A DNA stretch of 64,000 nucleotides from Acidobacteriota bacterium (GTDB taxonomy: Bacteria > Acidobacteriota > Blastocatellia > Chloracidobacteriales > JADJPF01). The number at the start of each line of letters is the position of its first letter. The first letter of the stretch is position 1. Positions 5,850-38,939 of the stretch are shown here, piece after piece. Under the pieces are notes generated by a model that was given only the letters and a program-made list of their open reading frames with translations, was not told the origin of the DNA and did no database searches. The position numbers and the translations under genes were made by a program. The stretch lies in NCBI GenBank assembly GCA_016213785.1, contig JACQZQ010000113.1:62001-126000 (forward strand). Direction: 5' to 3'.

Positions 5850-6252
5850 TAAAAAAACCCCCAGTAAAATATTTTTAAGAAGTTTAGCTTAAGTTGTATA
5901 TTGAAATAAGTTATTTTAACGTGCTAGAAACTTATAATAAGCAATTAGTAGACCTATTTTACAAATTATAAAAAGTTTTGGAAAACAAGTTGGTTTGAAG
6001 CATTTACTTGTTTTGGATTATACCATTTTGTTCTTTAATTTGAAGTTAAGCGGCACAGTAGATTATAAAAATCAAAAACTTGTTTATAAAATATGATATT
6101 AAGAAGTTGAGATTGACATAAGTTGTTAAATGAACATTAACAAATTTTGTTAGCTAAAATTAGATATATAAAAAGTAAAATATAGATTCTAATAAGATCC
6201 TCAATAATAGCCTAAAGTAGCTACTCTAGGCTATTACACATAGAAATTAGCT
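5850..6252. other. Gene-free A/T-rich gap with two inverted repeats
   Basis: No open frame of useful length was found on either strand. An inverted repeat at 5982-5990 and 6006-6014 (AAAACAAGT/ACTTGTTTT, 15-nt loop) lies upstream of the exporter operon. A terminator-like hairpin lies at 6205-6236. The gap should hold the promoter of the minus-strand operon starting at 5849, but no convincing -35/-10 pair was identified. Confidence 0.5.
6205..6236 (-). terminator. Hairpin after the dienelactone hydrolase gene
   Basis: A 10-bp perfect stem (TAATAGCCTA/TAGGCTATTA) encloses a second 10-bp palindrome, AGTAGCTACT. It starts 16 bp past the hydrolase stop codon. No strong U-run follows on the minus strand, so its strength as an intrinsic terminator is uncertain. 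Confidence 0.5.
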
Positions 6253-6930
6253 TTAATAAAGGTGTTCTTTATATAGCTTTAATACTCTTTGCCAAGCATC
6301 TTCAGCTGCTTCTTTATTATAAACTTGCTCACGGGAATCATTAAAAAATGCATGATCAAGACCGGCATAGATTTTTATTTCAACCGTCTTTCCATGAGAT
6401 TTTAATGTTTCTTCTAATTTTTTGACTGACTCAACAGGGACAAAAGGATCATTTTCTGCATATAAGCCTAAAACAGCCGCTTTAATATTGGCTAAATCAG
6501 GCTCAAAGTGTGGGTGTATGCCATAGAAGATTACACAGGCATTTACTTTATCATTTTTAGAAGCAGCATAAAGTGATAATTGTCCTCCCATACAAAAGCC
6601 TACAGTTGCTATTTTTTTAGGGCTTACAGATGAGTGATTTGATAAAAAGTCAATTACTCCATCTAGTTCTTTTTGAGTTTGAGCTATATTTAGACTCATC
6701 ATTAACTTACCAGCTTGATCAGGTGAAGTTGTAGACTCACCATGATAGAGGTCTGGAGCTAAGGCTACATAACCAGCAGATGCAAACCTATCAGCTACAT
6801 CTTTAATATGGGGTACTAGTCCCCACCACTCTTGTAATACTATTACACCAGGGCCTTGCCCGCTTTTAGGTAAAGCCAAATAACCATCAATTGATGATTC
6901 ATTGTAAGGAATTTGCACCATTTCTCCCAT
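6253..6930 (-). CDS. Dienelactone hydrolase family protein
   Basis: 225 aa, the usual DLH length. The alpha/beta hydrolase has a Cys nucleophile in GFCMGG (about residue 120), Asp in AENDPF and His in GLDHAFF. The conserved Glu of the family lies in LQEWWG near residue 35. No signal peptide, so cytoplasmic. An in-frame stop just upstream confines the start to the ATG at 6928-6930 or a later codon. An AGGAGG lies 15 nt upstream, further than ideal. Family members hydrolyse dienelactones or other small esters, and the substrate here is unknown. It appears to be transcribed alone. Confidence 0.85.
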   Translation of the reverse strand: MGEMVQIPYNESSIDGYLALPKSGQGPGVIVLQEWWGLVPHIKDVADRFASAGYVALAPDLYHGESTTSPDQAGKLMMSLNIAQTQKELDGVIDFLSNHSSVSPKKIATVGFCMGGQLSLYAASKNDKVNACVIFYGIHPHFEPDLANIKAAVLGLYAENDPFVPVESVKKLEETLKSHGKTVEIKIYAGLDHAFFNDSREQVYNKEAAEDAWQRVLKLYKEHLY

Positions 6931-7061
6931 ACGTAGTTAATTAATCCTCCTAATAAGTTGCTTTTACAAAAACAGCTATGCTAACAAAGTTAAGCTTAAT
7001 AAGCCATAGTTCCTAGGATAAAGTATAGATATGGAAAATTTTAACCCTATTTGCTTTTAAG

Positions 7062-7397
7062 CTAGTAAATATTCATTATTCTTTTTACTTCTGCTTCCAT
7101 TTGACCCCGCCACATTAAATAATACATCCGAAAATCTGCTAGAAAAGAATATACAGGATACTTAAATGTAGCAGGACGGTTTTTCTCAATAAAAAAATGT
7201 GAAAACCAGGCAAACCCATAAGAAACCCATAATCCACCAAATAAAAACCATAAATTGCCAGTTAAAAATGCTAGTGTAAAACAAATTAATCCTAAAGTAG
7301 TTCCTATAAAATGAAAGACTCGTGTAGTAAGTAAACTATGTTCTTTAACATAAAAAGGCCAAAAATCTTCAAAATTATCAAAGCGTTCTAGAGACAT
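7062..7397 (-). CDS. DUF962 / Mpo1-like small membrane protein
   Basis: 111 aa from the chosen start. The opening FWPFYVKEHSLLTTRVFHFIG matches the DUF962 (YGL010w/Mpo1-like) pattern of F-x2-FY-x3-H followed by R-x2-H-x2-G; these His residues are metal ligands in yeast Mpo1. Two TM segments follow, then SHFFIEKNRPATFKYP, also typical. The start is ATG 7395-7397 because GGAGG lies 5 nt before it. An in-frame ATG 12 nt further up (7407-7409) overlaps that SD and is unlikely. Yeast Mpo1 is an Fe(II) dioxygenase acting on 2-hydroxy fatty acids; the role in bacteria is unknown. Confidence 0.8.
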   Translation of the reverse strand: MSLERFDNFEDFWPFYVKEHSLLTTRVFHFIGTTLGLICFTLAFLTGNLWFLFGGLWVSYGFAWFSHFFIEKNRPATFKYPVYSFLADFRMYYLMWRGQMEAEVKRIMNIY

Positions 7398-7549
7398 AAA
7401 TTCCTCCAATATTAAAATAATTATTTACTAACTAATGATAAACTTTGCTTTTAAGTCTTTTCAATAAGGTTTATAAAAGCTATTATTTGCAAATTGAAAG
7501 TAATTTTCATCCTAACATAAATACATAAATTATATAAACTCTTAAAACT

Positions 7550-8497
7550 ATGCCTGATAATCTACTAGGTGGGAGATATCTTGTAACGGAACTGTTGGGA
7601 GAGGGTGGTATAGGAGTAGTCTATAAAGCTGAAGATACAAAAGCGCATACAGAAGTTGCTATTAAATTTATGATTCAAGAACCCGCAACAGAGGTAAAAA
7701 CACAACAGATACGCCAAAGATATTTTGCCAGAGAAATAGCTATACTCTCAAAAATTCGCCATCCAGGGATTGTTGCACTCTATGATAGTGGTTTTACAGA
7801 GATAGGACTACCCTATTTTGTTATGGAATATGTTGTAGGACGGACACTTTTAGATATATTAAAAGAAGGCCCTTTAATATTAGGTAGAGCATTTAACTTA
7901 CTAAAACAAATAGGCTCAGCACTAAATTGTATTCATCAACATAATGCAATTCATCGCGACTTAAAACCAGAAAATATAATGATTGTTACTAAAGAAGGTA
8001 GAGAAGAAGCAAAACTTCTAGATTTTGGTATTGCTAAAATCTTAGAAGACACTCCAAGTGCTAGCGTTTTTATGCCTATCACTCAAGTAGGTCATATACT
8101 AGGAACGGTTGATTATCTTTCTCCTGAACAGTGGCAAGATAAACCCTTAGATCCTAGAGCAGATATTTATGCTTTTGGCCTTATAGCTTATGAGATGCTA
8201 ACAGGTGAACACCCTTTTCGAGGCGGGCTTTCTATAGGTGATACAATGATGAGACACTTAGAAGAAGAACCTCAACCCCCTTCTAGCCTTGATAAAGAAA
8301 TTCCTATTTTACTTGATGAAGTGATCTTAAAATCTTTAGCAAAAGACCGAAATAATCGATATAGTACTGTTATAGATTTTCTTACTGATTTTGAAGAAGT
8401 TTTAGCAGAAATTTATCGACGAAGTATGAGCTATTTATCTAACCCTGCAACAGAAACCCTAATGTATGAAATAGTTGATTTTGATGATGAGGAATAA
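7550..8497 (+). CDS. Cytoplasmic Ser/Thr protein kinase (Hanks type)
   Basis: 315 aa, little more than a kinase domain. The Gly-rich loop is LGEGGIGVVYKAE, the ATP-anchoring Lys lies in VAIKFM (about K39), the catalytic loop is HRDLKPENIM (about D137), the Mg loop is LDFGIAK, and SPEQW replaces APE. No TM segment, PASTA or sensor domain follows; the tail is short and acidic (DFDDEE). It is convergent with the FHA-GAF-cyclase at 8534. FHA domains bind phosphothreonine, so that neighbour is a candidate substrate or reader (inference). No SD is visible before the ATG. Confidence 0.9.
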   Translation: MPDNLLGGRYLVTELLGEGGIGVVYKAEDTKAHTEVAIKFMIQEPATEVKTQQIRQRYFAREIAILSKIRHPGIVALYDSGFTEIGLPYFVMEYVVGRTLLDILKEGPLILGRAFNLLKQIGSALNCIHQHNAIHRDLKPENIMIVTKEGREEAKLLDFGIAKILEDTPSASVFMPITQVGHILGTVDYLSPEQWQDKPLDPRADIYAFGLIAYEMLTGEHPFRGGLSIGDTMMRHLEEEPQPPSSLDKEIPILLDEVILKSLAKDRNNRYSTVIDFLTDFEEVLAEIYRRSMSYLSNPATETLMYEIVDFDDEE

Positions 8498-8533
8498 AGG
8501 CTTACTTAATAATTGGCTAATTAGTATATTTAA

Positions 8534-10138
8534 TTAATAAACTACCTGAAAAATATTAGGCACATCAGTCACCCCTTTTAGATTTAAGCCCGCTACTGGA
8601 ACTAAAGAAAACGCTTCATCAGTTTGTAAGCTTACACTTTCACTAATTAAGATTTGTTGCCCTCTAGATTGTTGCATTAGGCGTGCTGCTAAATTAACTG
8701 CATTACCAATAGCTGTATAGTCCATACGCATTTCTGAACCAATATAGCCTACTACTACCTCGCCCATATTAATACCTATTCCTATTTCAATAGGATCAAT
8801 TCCATAGCTTTGTAAGTCTTGATTAAGTAAATAAAGTTGTCTTTGCATAGTAATTGCAGCATTAACTGCATTAAAACTATCTTGATTACTTTGATAAGGC
8901 GCTCCAAAAAGTGCCATAAGGCCATCACCTAAAAATTTATCTAGTGTTCCTTGATAGGCAAAAATAATTTCTGTCATTGTAGAAAGGAAACGATTTAATA
9001 TATAAATAACAATCTCTGGATCGCCTTTCTCAACAAAAACATTAAAGTCTTTAATTGAAGCAAATAACACTGTTACAGTTTGAGTTAGACCATCACCTAT
9101 ACCTAATTGATCTGGTGATTGCAAGATAAGGTCTACTACTTGATTTGGTAAAAATCGTTGATAATTTGCCCTTAAAATAGCTTCTTGAGCTAACTGGTCA
9201 TAAGCAAAAGCATTGTCTATAGCAATTGCAGCCTGTGCTGCTACTGCTGTTAGTAAGTCTAAGTCATCTAGAGTAAATGGGTTAGCTATCCCTAATTTAT
9301 CTGCGTAAATTACCCCAAGAACACGTTGTTTTCCAATTAGTGGAACACACATTAAGGAATGGATATTTTGACAAGCAATAGAATCAGCAGCATTAAATCT
9401 TTCATCTAATTGTATATCTTCAGAAATTAATGCCACTTTATCTGTTATTACTTTTTGTGTAATAGTTCGACTAAGACTTAAAGTATGTTTTGCTAAGGAT
9501 TGATTAAAATCTGGATGAAAGCTAATTAAACGAGGTTCAACTAAGTTATTTATTTCATCCCAAGACAACATTGCACATCGTTCTGCACTAGTAAGCTTAA
9601 AACATAAATCAACTATTTCGCTAAAAACTTTATCTATATCAAAAACAGAACTAAGCGTTTTACCAAAGGCATAAAGCATTTCTATAGTTTGGACTTTTTC
9701 TTGTAGCTTAGTTTCTAGTTCTAAACGCTTATCAATTTGCTGTGGAACATCTTGTAATGCTTCTAAAAGGTTATTAAATACAGAGGTTCCTCTTACTTGG
9801 GAATATTGGCTAATAGGTGTTTCATGATAAGTAACATAAGCATCACCTACAGTATTTATTAGTTGTAAAATAAAATTTGCAATAGAAAATTTATCTCCTG
9901 CACTAATTAAACATTCATTAACTCGCTTTTTATTTACATATATTCCATTAGTGCTATTTAAGTCTTTTAGTAGATAACAACCATTTTGAAGCTTTAAGGA
10001 GGCATGTTGGACAGAAACTTGTTTAGATGATAGGACTAGATCGCTTCTAGCCGGATTTCGCCCAATTGTTATTTCAGGCTTTTCAATTGGAAATTCAAAA
10101 CTATTTCCATGAGTGTCTGTAATTAAGAGTTTAAACAT
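8534..10138 (-). CDS. FHA-GAF-class III nucleotide cyclase-like protein
   Basis: 534 aa. An FHA domain (about 1-95) has ITIGRNPARSDLVLSS and VSVQHASLK and should bind phosphothreonine. After a short helix comes a GAF domain (about 165-310), then a class III cyclase domain (about 350-534). Conserved catalytic parts are K401 and D405 (DKFLGDGLMALFG) and N482/R486 (VNLAARL). The first metal-binding Asp, expected in FADI, is replaced by Ser361 (VLFASIKDF). Activity is therefore doubtful or uses altered metal chemistry. No signal peptide or TM, so cytoplasmic. It is convergent with the kinase at 7550. Confidence 0.9.
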   Translation of the reverse strand: MFKLLITDTHGNSFEFPIEKPEITIGRNPARSDLVLSSKQVSVQHASLKLQNGCYLLKDLNSTNGIYVNKKRVNECLISAGDKFSIANFILQLINTVGDAYVTYHETPISQYSQVRGTSVFNNLLEALQDVPQQIDKRLELETKLQEKVQTIEMLYAFGKTLSSVFDIDKVFSEIVDLCFKLTSAERCAMLSWDEINNLVEPRLISFHPDFNQSLAKHTLSLSRTITQKVITDKVALISEDIQLDERFNAADSIACQNIHSLMCVPLIGKQRVLGVIYADKLGIANPFTLDDLDLLTAVAAQAAIAIDNAFAYDQLAQEAILRANYQRFLPNQVVDLILQSPDQLGIGDGLTQTVTVLFASIKDFNVFVEKGDPEIVIYILNRFLSTMTEIIFAYQGTLDKFLGDGLMALFGAPYQSNQDSFNAVNAAITMQRQLYLLNQDLQSYGIDPIEIGIGINMGEVVVGYIGSEMRMDYTAIGNAVNLAARLMQQSRGQQILISESVSLQTDEAFSLVPVAGLNLKGVTDVPNIFQVVY

Positions 10139-34093: not shown

Positions 34094-35608
34094 ATGGTTA
34101 ATCTTTTTAGCAAAACAAGGTCAATTTTAGCAATTGACTTAAGCAATGACCTTTTAACTAAAGTAGCTTTAGTTGCTAGTGATGGCGAGCGTTTTTCTTT
34201 AGAAGGTTGGGATTATTACTCGGAACAAAATAATGGTAATACAGATTTCCTACAAAACTTTAAGCCAGAAGCAGTTACAGTTGCTTTAAGTGATGCTCAT
34301 ACATTATGTTTTGCTGTTCCTGATCTTACAAGCTTTAATTTAGAAATGGAAAAACGTAAACGAGGGCTTTCAGTACAAACCCAATATTCTGACTTCTTAA
34401 AAATCTCTAATAGCTCAATACTTGCTGCTGTTCATAAGGATATGGCAGAAGAAGTATTGAAAAGTGTAAGAGACACATTTCCTAACATCCCTAAAGTCTC
34501 CATTAATCATTCAATGGCAGCCTTATTTTATATTTACTTACGTAGCTATCGCCCTCAACCTGAAATTCGTACTGCAATAGTACATTGGGCAGGAAATGTT
34601 GTTTCTATTTTAGTAGCTCAAACAGAGATTCCTATTTGGGAAGGATCTATAGATTTGAAAACTGAAGATAGAGAAGAAGCTTATTCAGAAATCTCTGCTC
34701 TGCTGCAAAGTGCAAATGAAAAACTTTCTGCTTCACAATATAACTTAATCTTATTAGCAGGAGATTGTGATGGCAATGATCTAAGAAAAATGCGTAATTT
34801 TGCTGATCAAGTAGAACTAATTTCACCTTATCGTAATGGGGCATTTGAACTTGGGCGAGGCCTAGGTACACGTCGTAAAGAAGCTCAAGTAGATGGCTAT
34901 CAACTTGCTGTAGCTATTGGTTGTGCTGGAATGTTATTAGAGGGTGTGGGTCTAAATTTAGCTGATACAGATGTAGAAATTTATAATGAACTTCCAATGG
35001 AAAGAATTATAGAAGTTGAACAAACAGTTATTAATATGGTATCTACAAAAGTAAAGGCTGCTATTAAAAAAACTGTGCCGCTACTCTTAGAACAAGCTCA
35101 ACTACTTGTTGCTGGGCTAATTATTGCGATAGGGCTTTTTGGATATCGTTTCTATAATAATTATCAAGAGGAACTTAAACTTTCCCAAGAAATTCTTAAA
35201 GAGGAAACTCGTGCAAATGAGCTTGCAGATATTCGCACTAAATATGATGAATATAATAGAAAAATAAAAACTATTAAAGAACGCTCTATTGCTATAGGTG
35301 AAATTGCCAAAGAACAACTTATTGTTAGAACTGTCTTAAAGGAAATTGACTCACGTATCCCTAAAGGAATTGTTTTTAGTGAACTTACTATTGAAGATAG
35401 GACAGTTAGAGTTAGAGGCTATGCACCAGATAAATTAGCAGTTTTTGATTTTGCTAAAAAAATAGGCACAAGCATAAATCTATTTGCTGATGTCATCCCA
35501 ACATATGATGATAAAACTAATATAGGTAATTATGAAATTACTTTTAGATATATAGGTGAAATACCTATTAATAATTTTTCAGCAGTTACAATAAATGGAA
35601 ATAAATAA
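34094..35608 (+). CDS. PilM-PilN-like fusion protein (type IV pilus alignment complex)
   Basis: 504 aa. The first ~300 residues follow the PilM/actin-like pattern (ILAIDLSNDLLTKVALV at the start), though several ATP-site motifs are weak. One TM (about 337-354, LLVAGLIIAIGLFGYRFY) is followed by a coiled coil and a PilN-like periplasmic domain (VLKEIDSRIPKGIVFSEL, VRGYAPDKLAVFDFAKKI). In most bacteria PilM is cytoplasmic and PilN is a separate inner-membrane protein. Here they are one chain. AAGGA precedes the ATG. pilO and the ATPase follow, so this is the head of a three-gene operon. Confidence 0.75.
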   Translation: MVNLFSKTRSILAIDLSNDLLTKVALVASDGERFSLEGWDYYSEQNNGNTDFLQNFKPEAVTVALSDAHTLCFAVPDLTSFNLEMEKRKRGLSVQTQYSDFLKISNSSILAAVHKDMAEEVLKSVRDTFPNIPKVSINHSMAALFYIYLRSYRPQPEIRTAIVHWAGNVVSILVAQTEIPIWEGSIDLKTEDREEAYSEISALLQSANEKLSASQYNLILLAGDCDGNDLRKMRNFADQVELISPYRNGAFELGRGLGTRRKEAQVDGYQLAVAIGCAGMLLEGVGLNLADTDVEIYNELPMERIIEVEQTVINMVSTKVKAAIKKTVPLLLEQAQLLVAGLIIAIGLFGYRFYNNYQEELKLSQEILKEETRANELADIRTKYDEYNRKIKTIKERSIAIGEIAKEQLIVRTVLKEIDSRIPKGIVFSELTIEDRTVRVRGYAPDKLAVFDFAKKIGTSINLFADVIPTYDDKTNIGNYEITFRYIGEIPINNFSAVTINGNK

Positions 35609-35636: not shown

Positions 35637-36305
35637 ATGGCTAGAGAAAAAGAAAATAAACTTAATGGAATAGTAGCAGCAATTATAGCAGCATTAATTA
35701 TTATCTATGGGTCTTATGAAGTATCTAATATTTATTATTTTCAACCTGAAATGGAAGCCCGCTTAAAAGAACAACTAAAACTTGATGGCTTAAGAAATAA
35801 TAATAATGAAAGTGAAAGAATTAAAGCTAATGCTAGTGAACTAGAACAATCCTTAGCAAAAGCTGAAACTCAATTTAGTTCGCTAACTCCTTTAGTTCCA
35901 ACACAAGGAGAATTGCCACAAATACAAGATGGCTTAGCTAAAAAAGCCTCTGAACGAGATCTAAAATTTGACTTTTTTACACGTGCTGGAGAACCTAAAC
36001 CAATAGGTTCTATGCTAGAAATTCCACTTAAGGTAGATGTAGTTGGCTATTATGATAGTATTGGCCGTTATGTTGAAGAATTTTCTCGTTTTGAACGCTT
36101 ATTAAAAGTAAACTCTATAACAATGAGACTAGAAAAAGCTCCTATTCCTAGTACTTCTAACTCTACTAACTTAAGTACTTTAGATCCTCAAACTCAACAA
36201 ATGATCGCAGCAACTCAAGGCGCAATGGTAACAATGTTTCGCGGAACTATAAGTTTTTCTGCCTATGTAAGTAAAGAAAAACCTTCTTCTAAAGAAGTTA
36301 ATTAG
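35637..36305 (+). CDS. pilO: PilO-like type IV pilus inner-membrane protein
   Basis: 222 aa. One N-terminal TM (about 12-32), a coiled coil (to about 90), then a ferredoxin-like periplasmic domain. MLEIPLKVDVVGYYDSIGRYVEEFSRFERLLKVN contains the PilO pattern of a G-Y step followed by a conserved helix (quoted in part). It should pair with the PilN part of the preceding fusion. GAGG precedes the ATG; the gap to the upstream stop is 28 bp. PilP and PilQ are not present nearby. Confidence 0.75.
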   Translation: MAREKENKLNGIVAAIIAALIIIYGSYEVSNIYYFQPEMEARLKEQLKLDGLRNNNNESERIKANASELEQSLAKAETQFSSLTPLVPTQGELPQIQDGLAKKASERDLKFDFFTRAGEPKPIGSMLEIPLKVDVVGYYDSIGRYVEEFSRFERLLKVNSITMRLEKAPIPSTSNSTNLSTLDPQTQQMIAATQGAMVTMFRGTISFSAYVSKEKPSSKEVN

Positions 36306-36339
36306 CTTAAAAAATTTAGAAAAACCTAGGAGAAAACTT

Positions 36340-38325
36340 ATGGCTTTATTTGATAAATTTAGACGAACACCACAACCTACTAAAGCAGAAAATAAATCTC
36401 AAGCCAATAATAATTTAAATAAATTAACTTCTGCGCTTCGCCGTGATTCTGTTCAAGTAGAGGATACAACTAACCCATCAGCACCTCTTATACCAGCATT
36501 TGACCCTAATGCTTATGATGATGAACTCTCTATTCCAAGCCTTTCACCTGAAGCCTCAATGTATAAAACAGAAAGAATTATGGTTGATGGGCAAGAAATG
36601 TTTTTTGATAGATCTAAACTCTACAATATTGAGGATGAAATTTTAGCCCTAGTCGATCCTAAATTCGCTAAAGAGCAAATTTTAATACCAGTTGAGCGAC
36701 ATGGTAATGTTATTACGGTGCTTTGTGCTAGTAAGCAATCTCAGCGTGTTGCTGAACATATTCTTTCAGGACAACATAAAAGTTTACAGTTTAAGTTTAT
36801 TTTTTCTACTGAAGAAATAATTCAATCTGCTATTGAGTGTCATTACTTACGACGTGATCTACGTATTAATGAAGAGCAAAGAACTGAGCGCTACCGTCAG
36901 CTTTCTTCTCAAATTAAACAAGTTGCTACAGAACGTCGTCAGCGTAAACACTTAGTTTTTTCCACTGGTTCACGCCAATTTAGTCATAATGATAGCGCTT
37001 TAAGAGAATTAATAGAAAATCTTCTTTGTGATGGGCATTGGGCTAGAGCAACTGACATAGATATAGATCTTTTTCATTTAGACCCTAAATCAGGAGGTTA
37101 TGAAAAAAGCCGTGAATTAATGGTCTGTAGAATTCGTGTTGATGGTGAATACCAAACCATTCATGAAGAGCCTATGGAACTAGAAAAATATGAACGTATT
37201 CCTCAAGTCTTAAAAATTTACGCTGGCTTAGACCCTAATAATACTTGGGATGGTCAATCTGGCGTAATTCGCCCTACATTAACTTATGCTACAAGAGAAT
37301 CGCCTGTTGAATTTCGTGTTAACTTTATTCCAGGAGGCGATGATCGTGGCGAGTCAATATCAATTCGTTTACAAGAAAAAGATAACTTTGTTTTTACTTT
37401 AGATAAAATTGGGCTACTTCCTTTTCAAGAAGAAATATTTCACGATGAAATGATGATGCTTACTGATGGAATGATTGTTTTTTGTGGCCCAGTAAATAAA
37501 GGTAAAAACACTACAATGGTTTGCTTAATCAAAGAGTTTCAACAAAAATTTTCCACCAAAAAAATTGTCACTGTAGAAGACCCACCAGAATTTAACCTCC
37601 CTTATGTAACGCAAATCGGTGTTAGCCGTAAACGTGTTGATGAAAACTCAGGTAATGGAGAAAAAAGAGGCTTTCATTACTACTTGACACATATCTTAAG
37701 ACATAATCCTGATATTATTGTAATAGGCGAAGTTCGTGAACCAGAACCAGCGCAAATGGCTATAGAAACAGCAGGAATTGGTCATCTTGTCCTAACTACT
37801 ATGCACACTTCCAACACAATTGAGTCTATTGATCGCTTAAGAAATTTTGCAATTGAAAACTATAAAATTGCTGGCTCATTAAAATTTGTTGTTGCACAAC
37901 GCTTAGTAAAACGTATTTGCTCAGAATGTACTAGAGTCCCTGATGATGAACTACCAAAAATCCCTCGACTTCAAGAATATATTGAAAAAATTTCTTGGAA
38001 CTACCAAATACAGTTTATTAAAGGCAGTGGATATAATGCACGTGGTCAAGAATGTATGGTTTGTCGGGGTACAGGTTTTCATGGTCGTGTTGGTATTTAT
38101 GAAGTCCTACAAATTACTCGTCAAATCCGCTCTTTAATTAATCAATCTGCAACCCCCGATCAAGTTCGTGAACAAGCCTTAAAACAAGGGTTTAGATCTC
38201 TTTGGTCAATAGGGTTAGAAAGAGTTTTATTAGGTGATACTACTTTAGGGCAAATTATTTATCATATTGGTAGACCTGATCCTTACCTAGAAGGCTTACC
38301 TGAGGAAATAGATATAGATACATAA
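36340..38325 (+). CDS. PilB/GspE-like secretion ATPase with altered P-loop
   Basis: 661 aa. A long N-terminal region includes an MshEN-like part (ILALVDPKFAKEQILIPVER), followed by the GspE motor. The P-loop reads GPVNKGKNTT (383-392): the Ser/Thr that ligates Mg after GK is Asn390, and the usual GS before GK is NK. The Asp box (TVEDPPEF), Walker B (DIIVIGEVRE, E464), His box (HLVLTTMHTSN) and the Cys pairs of the C-terminal zinc motif (CSEC, CMVC) are intact. AGGAG lies 7 nt before the ATG. It may be a weak or regulatory ATPase, or work with a second motor encoded elsewhere. A terminator hairpin follows. Confidence 0.88.
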   Translation: MALFDKFRRTPQPTKAENKSQANNNLNKLTSALRRDSVQVEDTTNPSAPLIPAFDPNAYDDELSIPSLSPEASMYKTERIMVDGQEMFFDRSKLYNIEDEILALVDPKFAKEQILIPVERHGNVITVLCASKQSQRVAEHILSGQHKSLQFKFIFSTEEIIQSAIECHYLRRDLRINEEQRTERYRQLSSQIKQVATERRQRKHLVFSTGSRQFSHNDSALRELIENLLCDGHWARATDIDIDLFHLDPKSGGYEKSRELMVCRIRVDGEYQTIHEEPMELEKYERIPQVLKIYAGLDPNNTWDGQSGVIRPTLTYATRESPVEFRVNFIPGGDDRGESISIRLQEKDNFVFTLDKIGLLPFQEEIFHDEMMMLTDGMIVFCGPVNKGKNTTMVCLIKEFQQKFSTKKIVTVEDPPEFNLPYVTQIGVSRKRVDENSGNGEKRGFHYYLTHILRHNPDIIVIGEVREPEPAQMAIETAGIGHLVLTTMHTSNTIESIDRLRNFAIENYKIAGSLKFVVAQRLVKRICSECTRVPDDELPKIPRLQEYIEKISWNYQIQFIKGSGYNARGQECMVCRGTGFHGRVGIYEVLQITRQIRSLINQSATPDQVREQALKQGFRSLWSIGLERVLLGDTTLGQIIYHIGRPDPYLEGLPEEIDIDT

Positions 38326-38381: not shown

Positions 38382-38939
38382 ATGAGACAAGAAATATATA
38401 TAAGTACTGATGTAGAAACAGATGGGCCAATTCCTGGTATAAACTCAATGCTTAGTTTTGGGTCGGCGGCTTATTTAGCAAATAAAACTTTAGTTAGTAC
38501 TTTTTCTGCAAATCTAGAAACCCTTCCCGAAGCTTCGCCAAACCCAAACACAATGGCTTGGTGGCAAACACAGCCTGATGCATGGAAAGCTTGCCGCAAA
38601 GACTTACAAAAGCCTGAAATAGCAATGAAAAATTATGTTACATGGGTTAAATCCTTATTAGGTAAGCCAGTATTTGTAGCCTATCCTGCTGCTTTTGATT
38701 TCTTATTTGTTTATTGGTATATGATTAGATTTACTGGGGAAAGCCCTTTTTCCCATTCTGCGCTTGATATAAAAACTTATGCAATGGCAATGTTAAAAAA
38801 AGATTATAGAGATTCTACTAAGCGCAATATGCCTAAGCATTGGTTTGATAATTTTCCTCACACTCACCAAGCCCTAGATGATGCAATTGAACAAGGTGCA
38901 TTATTTTGTAACATGCTAAAAGAAAATCAGCAGAAATGA
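38382..38939 (+). CDS. DEDDh-family 3'-5' exonuclease
   Basis: 185 aa. The four acidic residues and His of the DnaQ/RNase T fold are visible: DVETDG (motif I, residues ~10-15), [10 protein letters not shown] (motif II Asp), and [13 protein letters not shown] (motif III, His and Asp). No other domain, so a small stand-alone nuclease, probably acting on RNA or single-stranded ends. The start must be at this ATG because motif I begins at residue 10. No SD precedes it; a terminator hairpin ends 6 nt upstream. A hairpin similar to that at 14008 follows. Confidence 0.82.

Follow-up and report, generated by a model that had tools for sequence, protein, structure and literature searches.

We found that the PilB/GspE-type ATPase encoded in a 64,000-nucleotide stretch of an Acidobacteriota genome (the window) carries a P-loop rebuilt in a conserved way, with threonine replaced by asparagine directly after the P-loop lysine (K+1) and, in most members, glycine replaced by asparagine three residues before it (K-3), and with the other catalytic apparatus kept. 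On comparative grounds the K+1 replacement is a real, selected redesign, conserved in ten distant copies that we call the GKN subfamily. We reasoned that the GKN protein is an ATP-binding, probably hydrolysing, kinetically altered motor of a lineage-specific T2SS/T4P-like machine, and give this reading a probability of about 0.5. The Ser/Thr that follows the P-loop lysine is treated as indispensable, and putting Asn in its place is how P-loop enzymes are disabled in textbook examples. The GKN lineage occurs naturally, has been duplicated several times and keeps an otherwise intact site, and thus tests directly whether a motor needs this hydroxyl; it may also bring to light a pilus motor that is slow or acts like a switch, or another way of coordinating Mg. 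No natural GKN Walker A motif and no degenerate pilus ATPase turned up in the open-licence literature searched, where both the GKN ATPase lineage and a T2SS/T4P-like system with such an ATPase in Blastocatellia are apparently undescribed. The features of the window locus are as follows.

34094..35608, + strand: PilM-PilN fusion (GspL layout), 504 aa, with an actin-like cytoplasmic domain, a TM segment, a coiled coil and a PilN-like domain
35637..36305, + strand: PilO/GspM-like inner-membrane protein, 222 aa (Pfam PilO, 53.8 bits; conserved in all loci)
36328..36332, + strand: AGGAG, ribosome-binding-like, 7 nt upstream of the ATPase ATG (seen directly)
36340..38325, + strand: GKN ATPase, PilB/GspE-type, 661 aa (translation, Pfam, NCBIfam and fold match)
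37315..37317, + strand: Arg326, arginine finger, equivalent to Geobacter PilB R271 (invariant in 10/10 GKN members and 137/137 canonical sequences)
37366..37368, + strand: Arg343, arginine finger, equivalent to Geobacter PilB R286 (invariant)
37486..37515, + strand: P-loop GPVNKGKNTT, residues 383-392 (read from the translation)
37495..37497, + strand: Asn386, K-3 (Asn in 8/10 GKN members; Gly in 137/137 canonical)
37507..37509, + strand: Asn390, K+1, codon AAC (Asn in 10/10 GKN members; Thr/Ser in 137/137 canonical)
37576..37590, + strand: Asp box EDPPE, residues 413-417, with Glu417 equivalent to the Geobacter PilB Mg ligand E357 (alignment)
37729..37731, + strand: catalytic Glu464, in GEVRE, equivalent to Geobacter PilB E395 (invariant)
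37783..37806, + strand: His box, His482 to His489 (His489 invariant; His482 in 8/10)
37918..38064, + strand: tetracysteine zinc site, Cys527/530/572/575 (four Cys invariant in 10/10 GKN members)

The ATPase is a member of the T2SSE superfamily (Pfam PF00437, 211.7 bits vs a cut-off of 24.9), and it scores far below the NCBIfam cut-offs of both the PilB equivalog (TIGR02538; 254 vs 676 bits) and the GspE equivalog (TIGR02533; 234 vs 630 bits); the Walker A pattern GxxxxGK[ST] of the PilB/GspE clade is absent from the GKN subfamily (10/10). Its AF2 model (mean pLDDT 74) superposes on 5oiu with a TM score of 0.85 by target length, which indicates the PilB/GspE N2D+CTD fold. The best Foldseek matches are PilB structures (Geobacter 5tsg/5tsh and Thermus PilF 5oiu; E about 1e-36); the nearest solved structures are PilB and GspE, and the model matches AMP-PNP-bound PilB. 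By alignment, Asn390 corresponds to Thr332 and His489 to His420 of Geobacter PilB, the protein from which residue roles were taken and in which the Asp-box glutamate E357 is the structure-assigned Mg ligand (PMC5424180). In this family, where Gly already occupies the Walker B acidic position and Mg is held by the Asp-box Glu, the protein therefore has a Mg ligand besides the Walker A hydroxyl. An earlier sequence-only reading had described GPVNKGKNTT with Asn390 alongside a kept Asp box, Walker B Glu, His box and zinc Cys pairs, all of which the translation confirms; the K-3 change, Asn386, was absent from it. A promoter and terminator scan of the ATPase locus gave no signal above shuffled sequence.

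Across a 148-row alignment, K+1 is Asn in all ten GKN members vs Thr (128) or Ser (9) in the 137 canonical sequences. The ten come from six genomes (G000-G005, G000 being the window's own) and share 21-79% identity over the ATPase region; besides the window ATPase, G002 (70%), G003 (59%) and G005 contribute one each, G004 two and G001 four paralogues. The relatives' P-loops read GPINKGKNTT, GPVNRGKNTT, GPVNHGKNTS, GRINTGKNGS, GATGVGKNTT, GSINRGKNCT, GPTNSGKNGT, GVMNSGKNGT and GPTGSGKNGT, and the first 203 loci yielded 152 distinct T2SSE-like P-loops, of which 142 read GKT/GKS and the other 10, all from this subfamily, read GKN. The sequence-only reading had held that homologues all carrying GKT would point to a sequencing error or a single decayed copy; aligning close homologues, as it had proposed, instead revealed GKN in all nine close relatives. 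The window does belong to a draft genome, and we found no support for an assembly error or a single decayed gene, an explanation refuted by ten concordant sequences from six genomes, with differing codon contexts (the lysine before the Asn is AAA or AAG) and identities down to 21%. Blastocatellia assemblies under distinct accessions match three of the genomes: JAEUQL01 for G002, JANWYG01 for G003 and JAHFUF01 for G001.

The altered P-loop stands in a protein that is otherwise strongly constrained. Only 31 of 443 columns (residues 203-645) are invariant among the ten proteins, whose median pairwise identity is 29%, and all 12 of the tested catalytic and zinc residues fall among them (hypergeometric p about 1e-15); conserved in 10/10 are the Lys of the P-loop, the two Arg fingers, the Glu residues of the Asp box, catalytic Glu464, His489 and the four zinc Cys. 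The sequence-only reading's description of a motor with a selectively altered P-loop is therefore supported, the Asn being conserved in ten members and every other tested catalytic residue being invariant. Between the window and G002 ATPases, dN is about 0.22 with saturated dS, which implies purifying selection.

The subfamily is separable and narrowly distributed. When 162 genomes of the class and 396 genomes of the phylum were searched with a profile, its members scored at least 376 bits and everything else at most 334 bits, and members occurred only in G000-G005, all in one order of Blastocatellia. We also considered that GKN might be a scattered polymorphism, and rejected this: two profile-independent DNA-pattern searches (K as AAG or AAA, N as AAY, followed by EDPxE) matched 38 loci in 297 genomes of the phylum, five of which were in-frame GKN...EDPxE, all known members. 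The best 80 loci from a four-row alignment search of the genome collection included no additional GKN member; phyla beyond Acidobacteriota were sampled through those 80 loci, and the restriction to one order holds as far as searched. In the phylogeny, the GKN ATPases fall outside the canonical PilB/GspE clade and form, together with a GKT sister from G005 (L053), one clade vs 22 canonical rows (100/99.9), on long branches that leave the deep branching order uncertain. A strict clade of GKN members alone was rejected (AU p 1.2e-6), L053 grouping with the G004/G005 members, so the Asn was either gained twice or gained once and reverted in L053.

The genes for PilMN, PilO and the ATPase are consecutive in the window, with gaps of 28 and 34 nt. 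The PilN part of the fusion is a weak Pfam match (21.2 bits vs a cut-off of 22.8; 29.7 in a homologue), and the best PDB matches of the fusion model are PilM, with GspL cytoplasmic domains also matched. In relatives the order is PilMN, PilO, GKN ATPase, GspF and then several prepilin-like genes whose position and N-terminus recall GspH, I, J and K; these assignments were made by reading, and the main evidence that the proteins are pilins is the N-terminal methylation motif. The GKN system thus holds a T2SS-type set, that is, a GspL/GspM-like pair, GspF and pseudopilins with the ATPase. In the window's genome it is split: the PilMN-PilO-ATPase run lies in the window, and a GspF-like gene with three prepilin-like genes lies on contig C42 after housekeeping genes (L068, C42:86000-95284, at 5973-9283 within it), the last running off the contig end. 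This GspF is 59% identical to that of G002 and 49% to that of G003, and the finding of GspF and pilin genes on C42 led us to reject a truncated, dead operon. No secretin was recognised in the GKN loci read; the window's genome has two, one with T4aP genes (C93) and one beside canonical GspE (C131), and the GKN system may share one of these. Apart from the GKN system, the window's genome encodes T4aP components, with pilMNOPQ on C93 and canonical PilB/PilT/PilC on C70, as well as a canonical T2SS on C131.

Several neighbours of these loci were recorded along the way. Directly downstream of the window ATPase, at 38382-38939, where relatives have GspF, lies an exonuclease-like gene (Rv2179c-like/RNase_T, near the cut-off). 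The GKN operon of G003 has a gene for a HAMP/HisKA histidine kinase immediately after its prepilin genes (L048, 2176-3603). Upstream of another GKN operon (L045, 1901-3364) is a gene for a predicted protein with a proprotein-convertase P-domain and an M91 peptidase domain, a possible substrate. The four divergent gene sets of G001 (L043, L044, L045 and L046) carry ATPases about 30-35% identical to that of the window; two adjoin IS200-like Y1 transposases, and sigma-/anti-sigma-like genes (by reading) lie near some. On contig C90 of G005, the GKT sister follows PilMN and PilO in a run that lacks GspF and pilins, and another T2SSE-like ORF lies nearby (L053, 2586-7026 and 9453-10892), and on C36 of the same genome a PilMN-PilO-like pair without an ATPase adjoins type VI secretion-like genes (ClpV-/TssK-like by eye; L210, 3-7055).

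We propose that the machine, built of PilMN, PilO, the GKN ATPase, GspF and prepilins in one order of Blastocatellia, would work as follows. ATP would still be bound, by Lys389 and the backbone, and Mg2+ would be held mainly by Asp-box Glu417, as in PilB, and by phosphate oxygens, with the Asn390 amide or a water standing in for the Thr hydroxyl. With Glu464 and the trans fingers Arg326/Arg343 in place, ATP would still be hydrolysed, probably at a lower rate or with ADP bound relatively more tightly, and the ring would still drive GspF in building a short prepilin filament. Such a loop would make a tuned slow motor or a long-dwell clutch, in contrast to the rapid motor of twitching pili. That the catalytic Glu, the Arg fingers and the Asp box persist at a median identity of about 29% speaks for hydrolysis that is altered, not lost, since relaxed selection on hydrolysis would have let Glu464 and the fingers drift. 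Also counting for an altered motor are the keeping of the PilB Mg ligand (E357) as Glu417, the conservation of a dedicated GspF (beside the ATPase in most relatives' loci), the persistence of four divergent GKN paralogues in G001, the purifying selection between window and G002, and the fold match to AMP-PNP-bound PilB.

The main rival is a non-hydrolysing switch or scaffold, a ring that binds ATP/ADP and GspL-GspF and gates assembly or signalling, doing no motor work, in the manner of Ras S17N-type trapping. The sequence-only reading had suggested nucleotide binding without normal turnover, which is possible. In Ras-type GTPases, replacing Ser/Thr at K+1 by Asn, as in Ras S17N, is the classic way in which Mg/GTP binding is lost, and it is known as a change that costs Ras-like GTPases their turnover. 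Other positions around the site have changed as well. The equivalent of PilB T411, which touches the His box, is Ile480 in the window and Ile/Leu/Ser/Thr among GKN members (Ile/Leu in 6/10) vs Thr in 136/137 canonical sequences, and Walker-B Gly463 is Ser/Thr in 3/10 GKN members; together with the Ras precedent, these changes mean that hydrolysis could be lost in some or all members. PilB-type proteins can, moreover, act without being motors: in the Walker A mutant K327A of Myxococcus xanthus PilB, ATP binding is strongly reduced and EPS signalling still works (PMC5544727). Strict conservation of Glu464, both Arg fingers and His489 in 10/10 members is, however, unexpected if hydrolysis goes unused, and we consider such a switch unlikely, if a possibility to be taken seriously.

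A different account of the altered loop is that Asn386 and Asn390 bind K+ or another cation, MnmE-style, offsetting the lost Thr hydroxyl. Asn386 aligns exactly with Asn226 of MnmE (GxxNxGK), whose side chain coordinates the activating K+ at a position where most P-loop NTPases carry Gly or Ala (PMC6310460), and the Asn/Asp at K-3 by which K+-dependent NTPases are recognised is found here (Asn in 8/10 GKN vs Gly in 137/137 canonical). However, K-3 is still Gly in two GKN members (L045 and L052) and Asp in the GKT sister; the K-3 and K+1 changes thus lack strict coupling, and we rejected a strict pairing of them; the Arg fingers are also kept, and MnmE-type enzymes belong to a different class. 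We hold cation-assisted catalysis to be quite improbable, and it is likewise doubtful that Asn in place of the near-universal P-loop Ser/Thr Mg ligand, paired with a K+-binding-type Asn at K-3, amounts to a naturally evolved alternative metal/cation chemistry in an ASCE rotary-type motor. Residue 341, which precedes finger Arg343 by two positions, is Val in 135/137 canonical sequences but Ser/Thr/Cys in every one of the ten GKN members and Thr in the GKT sister, and it likely lies on the same strand face as Arg343; a compensating hydroxyl at 392 was rejected, Thr/Ser there being common to both groups. Specific compensation for Asn390 by other site changes is suggestive only, since none of them is strictly coupled to it.

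The sequence-only reading had also offered a partner role to a second ATPase, in which the GKN protein would form mixed hexamers with, or help, a canonical GKT ATPase of the same cell. The search it had called for, for another pilB/pilT in the genome, did find candidates, as the window's genome encodes three canonical GKT GspE/PilB proteins. These lie elsewhere, however, and two (on C70 and C131) adjoin their own GspF/PilC genes; the GKN loci hold no second ATPase, most of them have a separate, conserved GspF, and an inactive partner would be expected to lose the catalytic Glu. This role therefore gained little support, and we think it improbable.

Compared with known systems, the GKN ATPase, which we favour as a working but altered motor, resembles type IVa PilB (Geobacter, Thermus) in its fold, Arg fingers, Asp box, catalytic Glu, His box, tetracysteine zinc site and PilM/N/O neighbours, and differs from it in the Asn residues at K+1 and K-3, the altered T411 equivalent and an extra conserved C-terminal DxxxEG motif. 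Like T2SS GspE, it is accompanied by a GspL-like fusion of PilM and PilN, by GspM/PilO and GspF, and by proteins resembling pseudopilins; unlike GspE, it has the GKN loop, lacks a secretin in its loci and falls below the GspE equivalog cut-off. With MnmE-type K+-dependent NTPases the window ATPase shares Asn at K-3; these, however, are TRAFAC GTPases with Ser at K+1 and a K-loop, which we did not find in the GKN ATPase. Finally, engineered mutants of the Ras S17N type carry Asn at the same K+1 position, but Ras S17N is an engineered inhibitory mutant, whereas GKN is the naturally conserved wild type of an ASCE motor ATPase.
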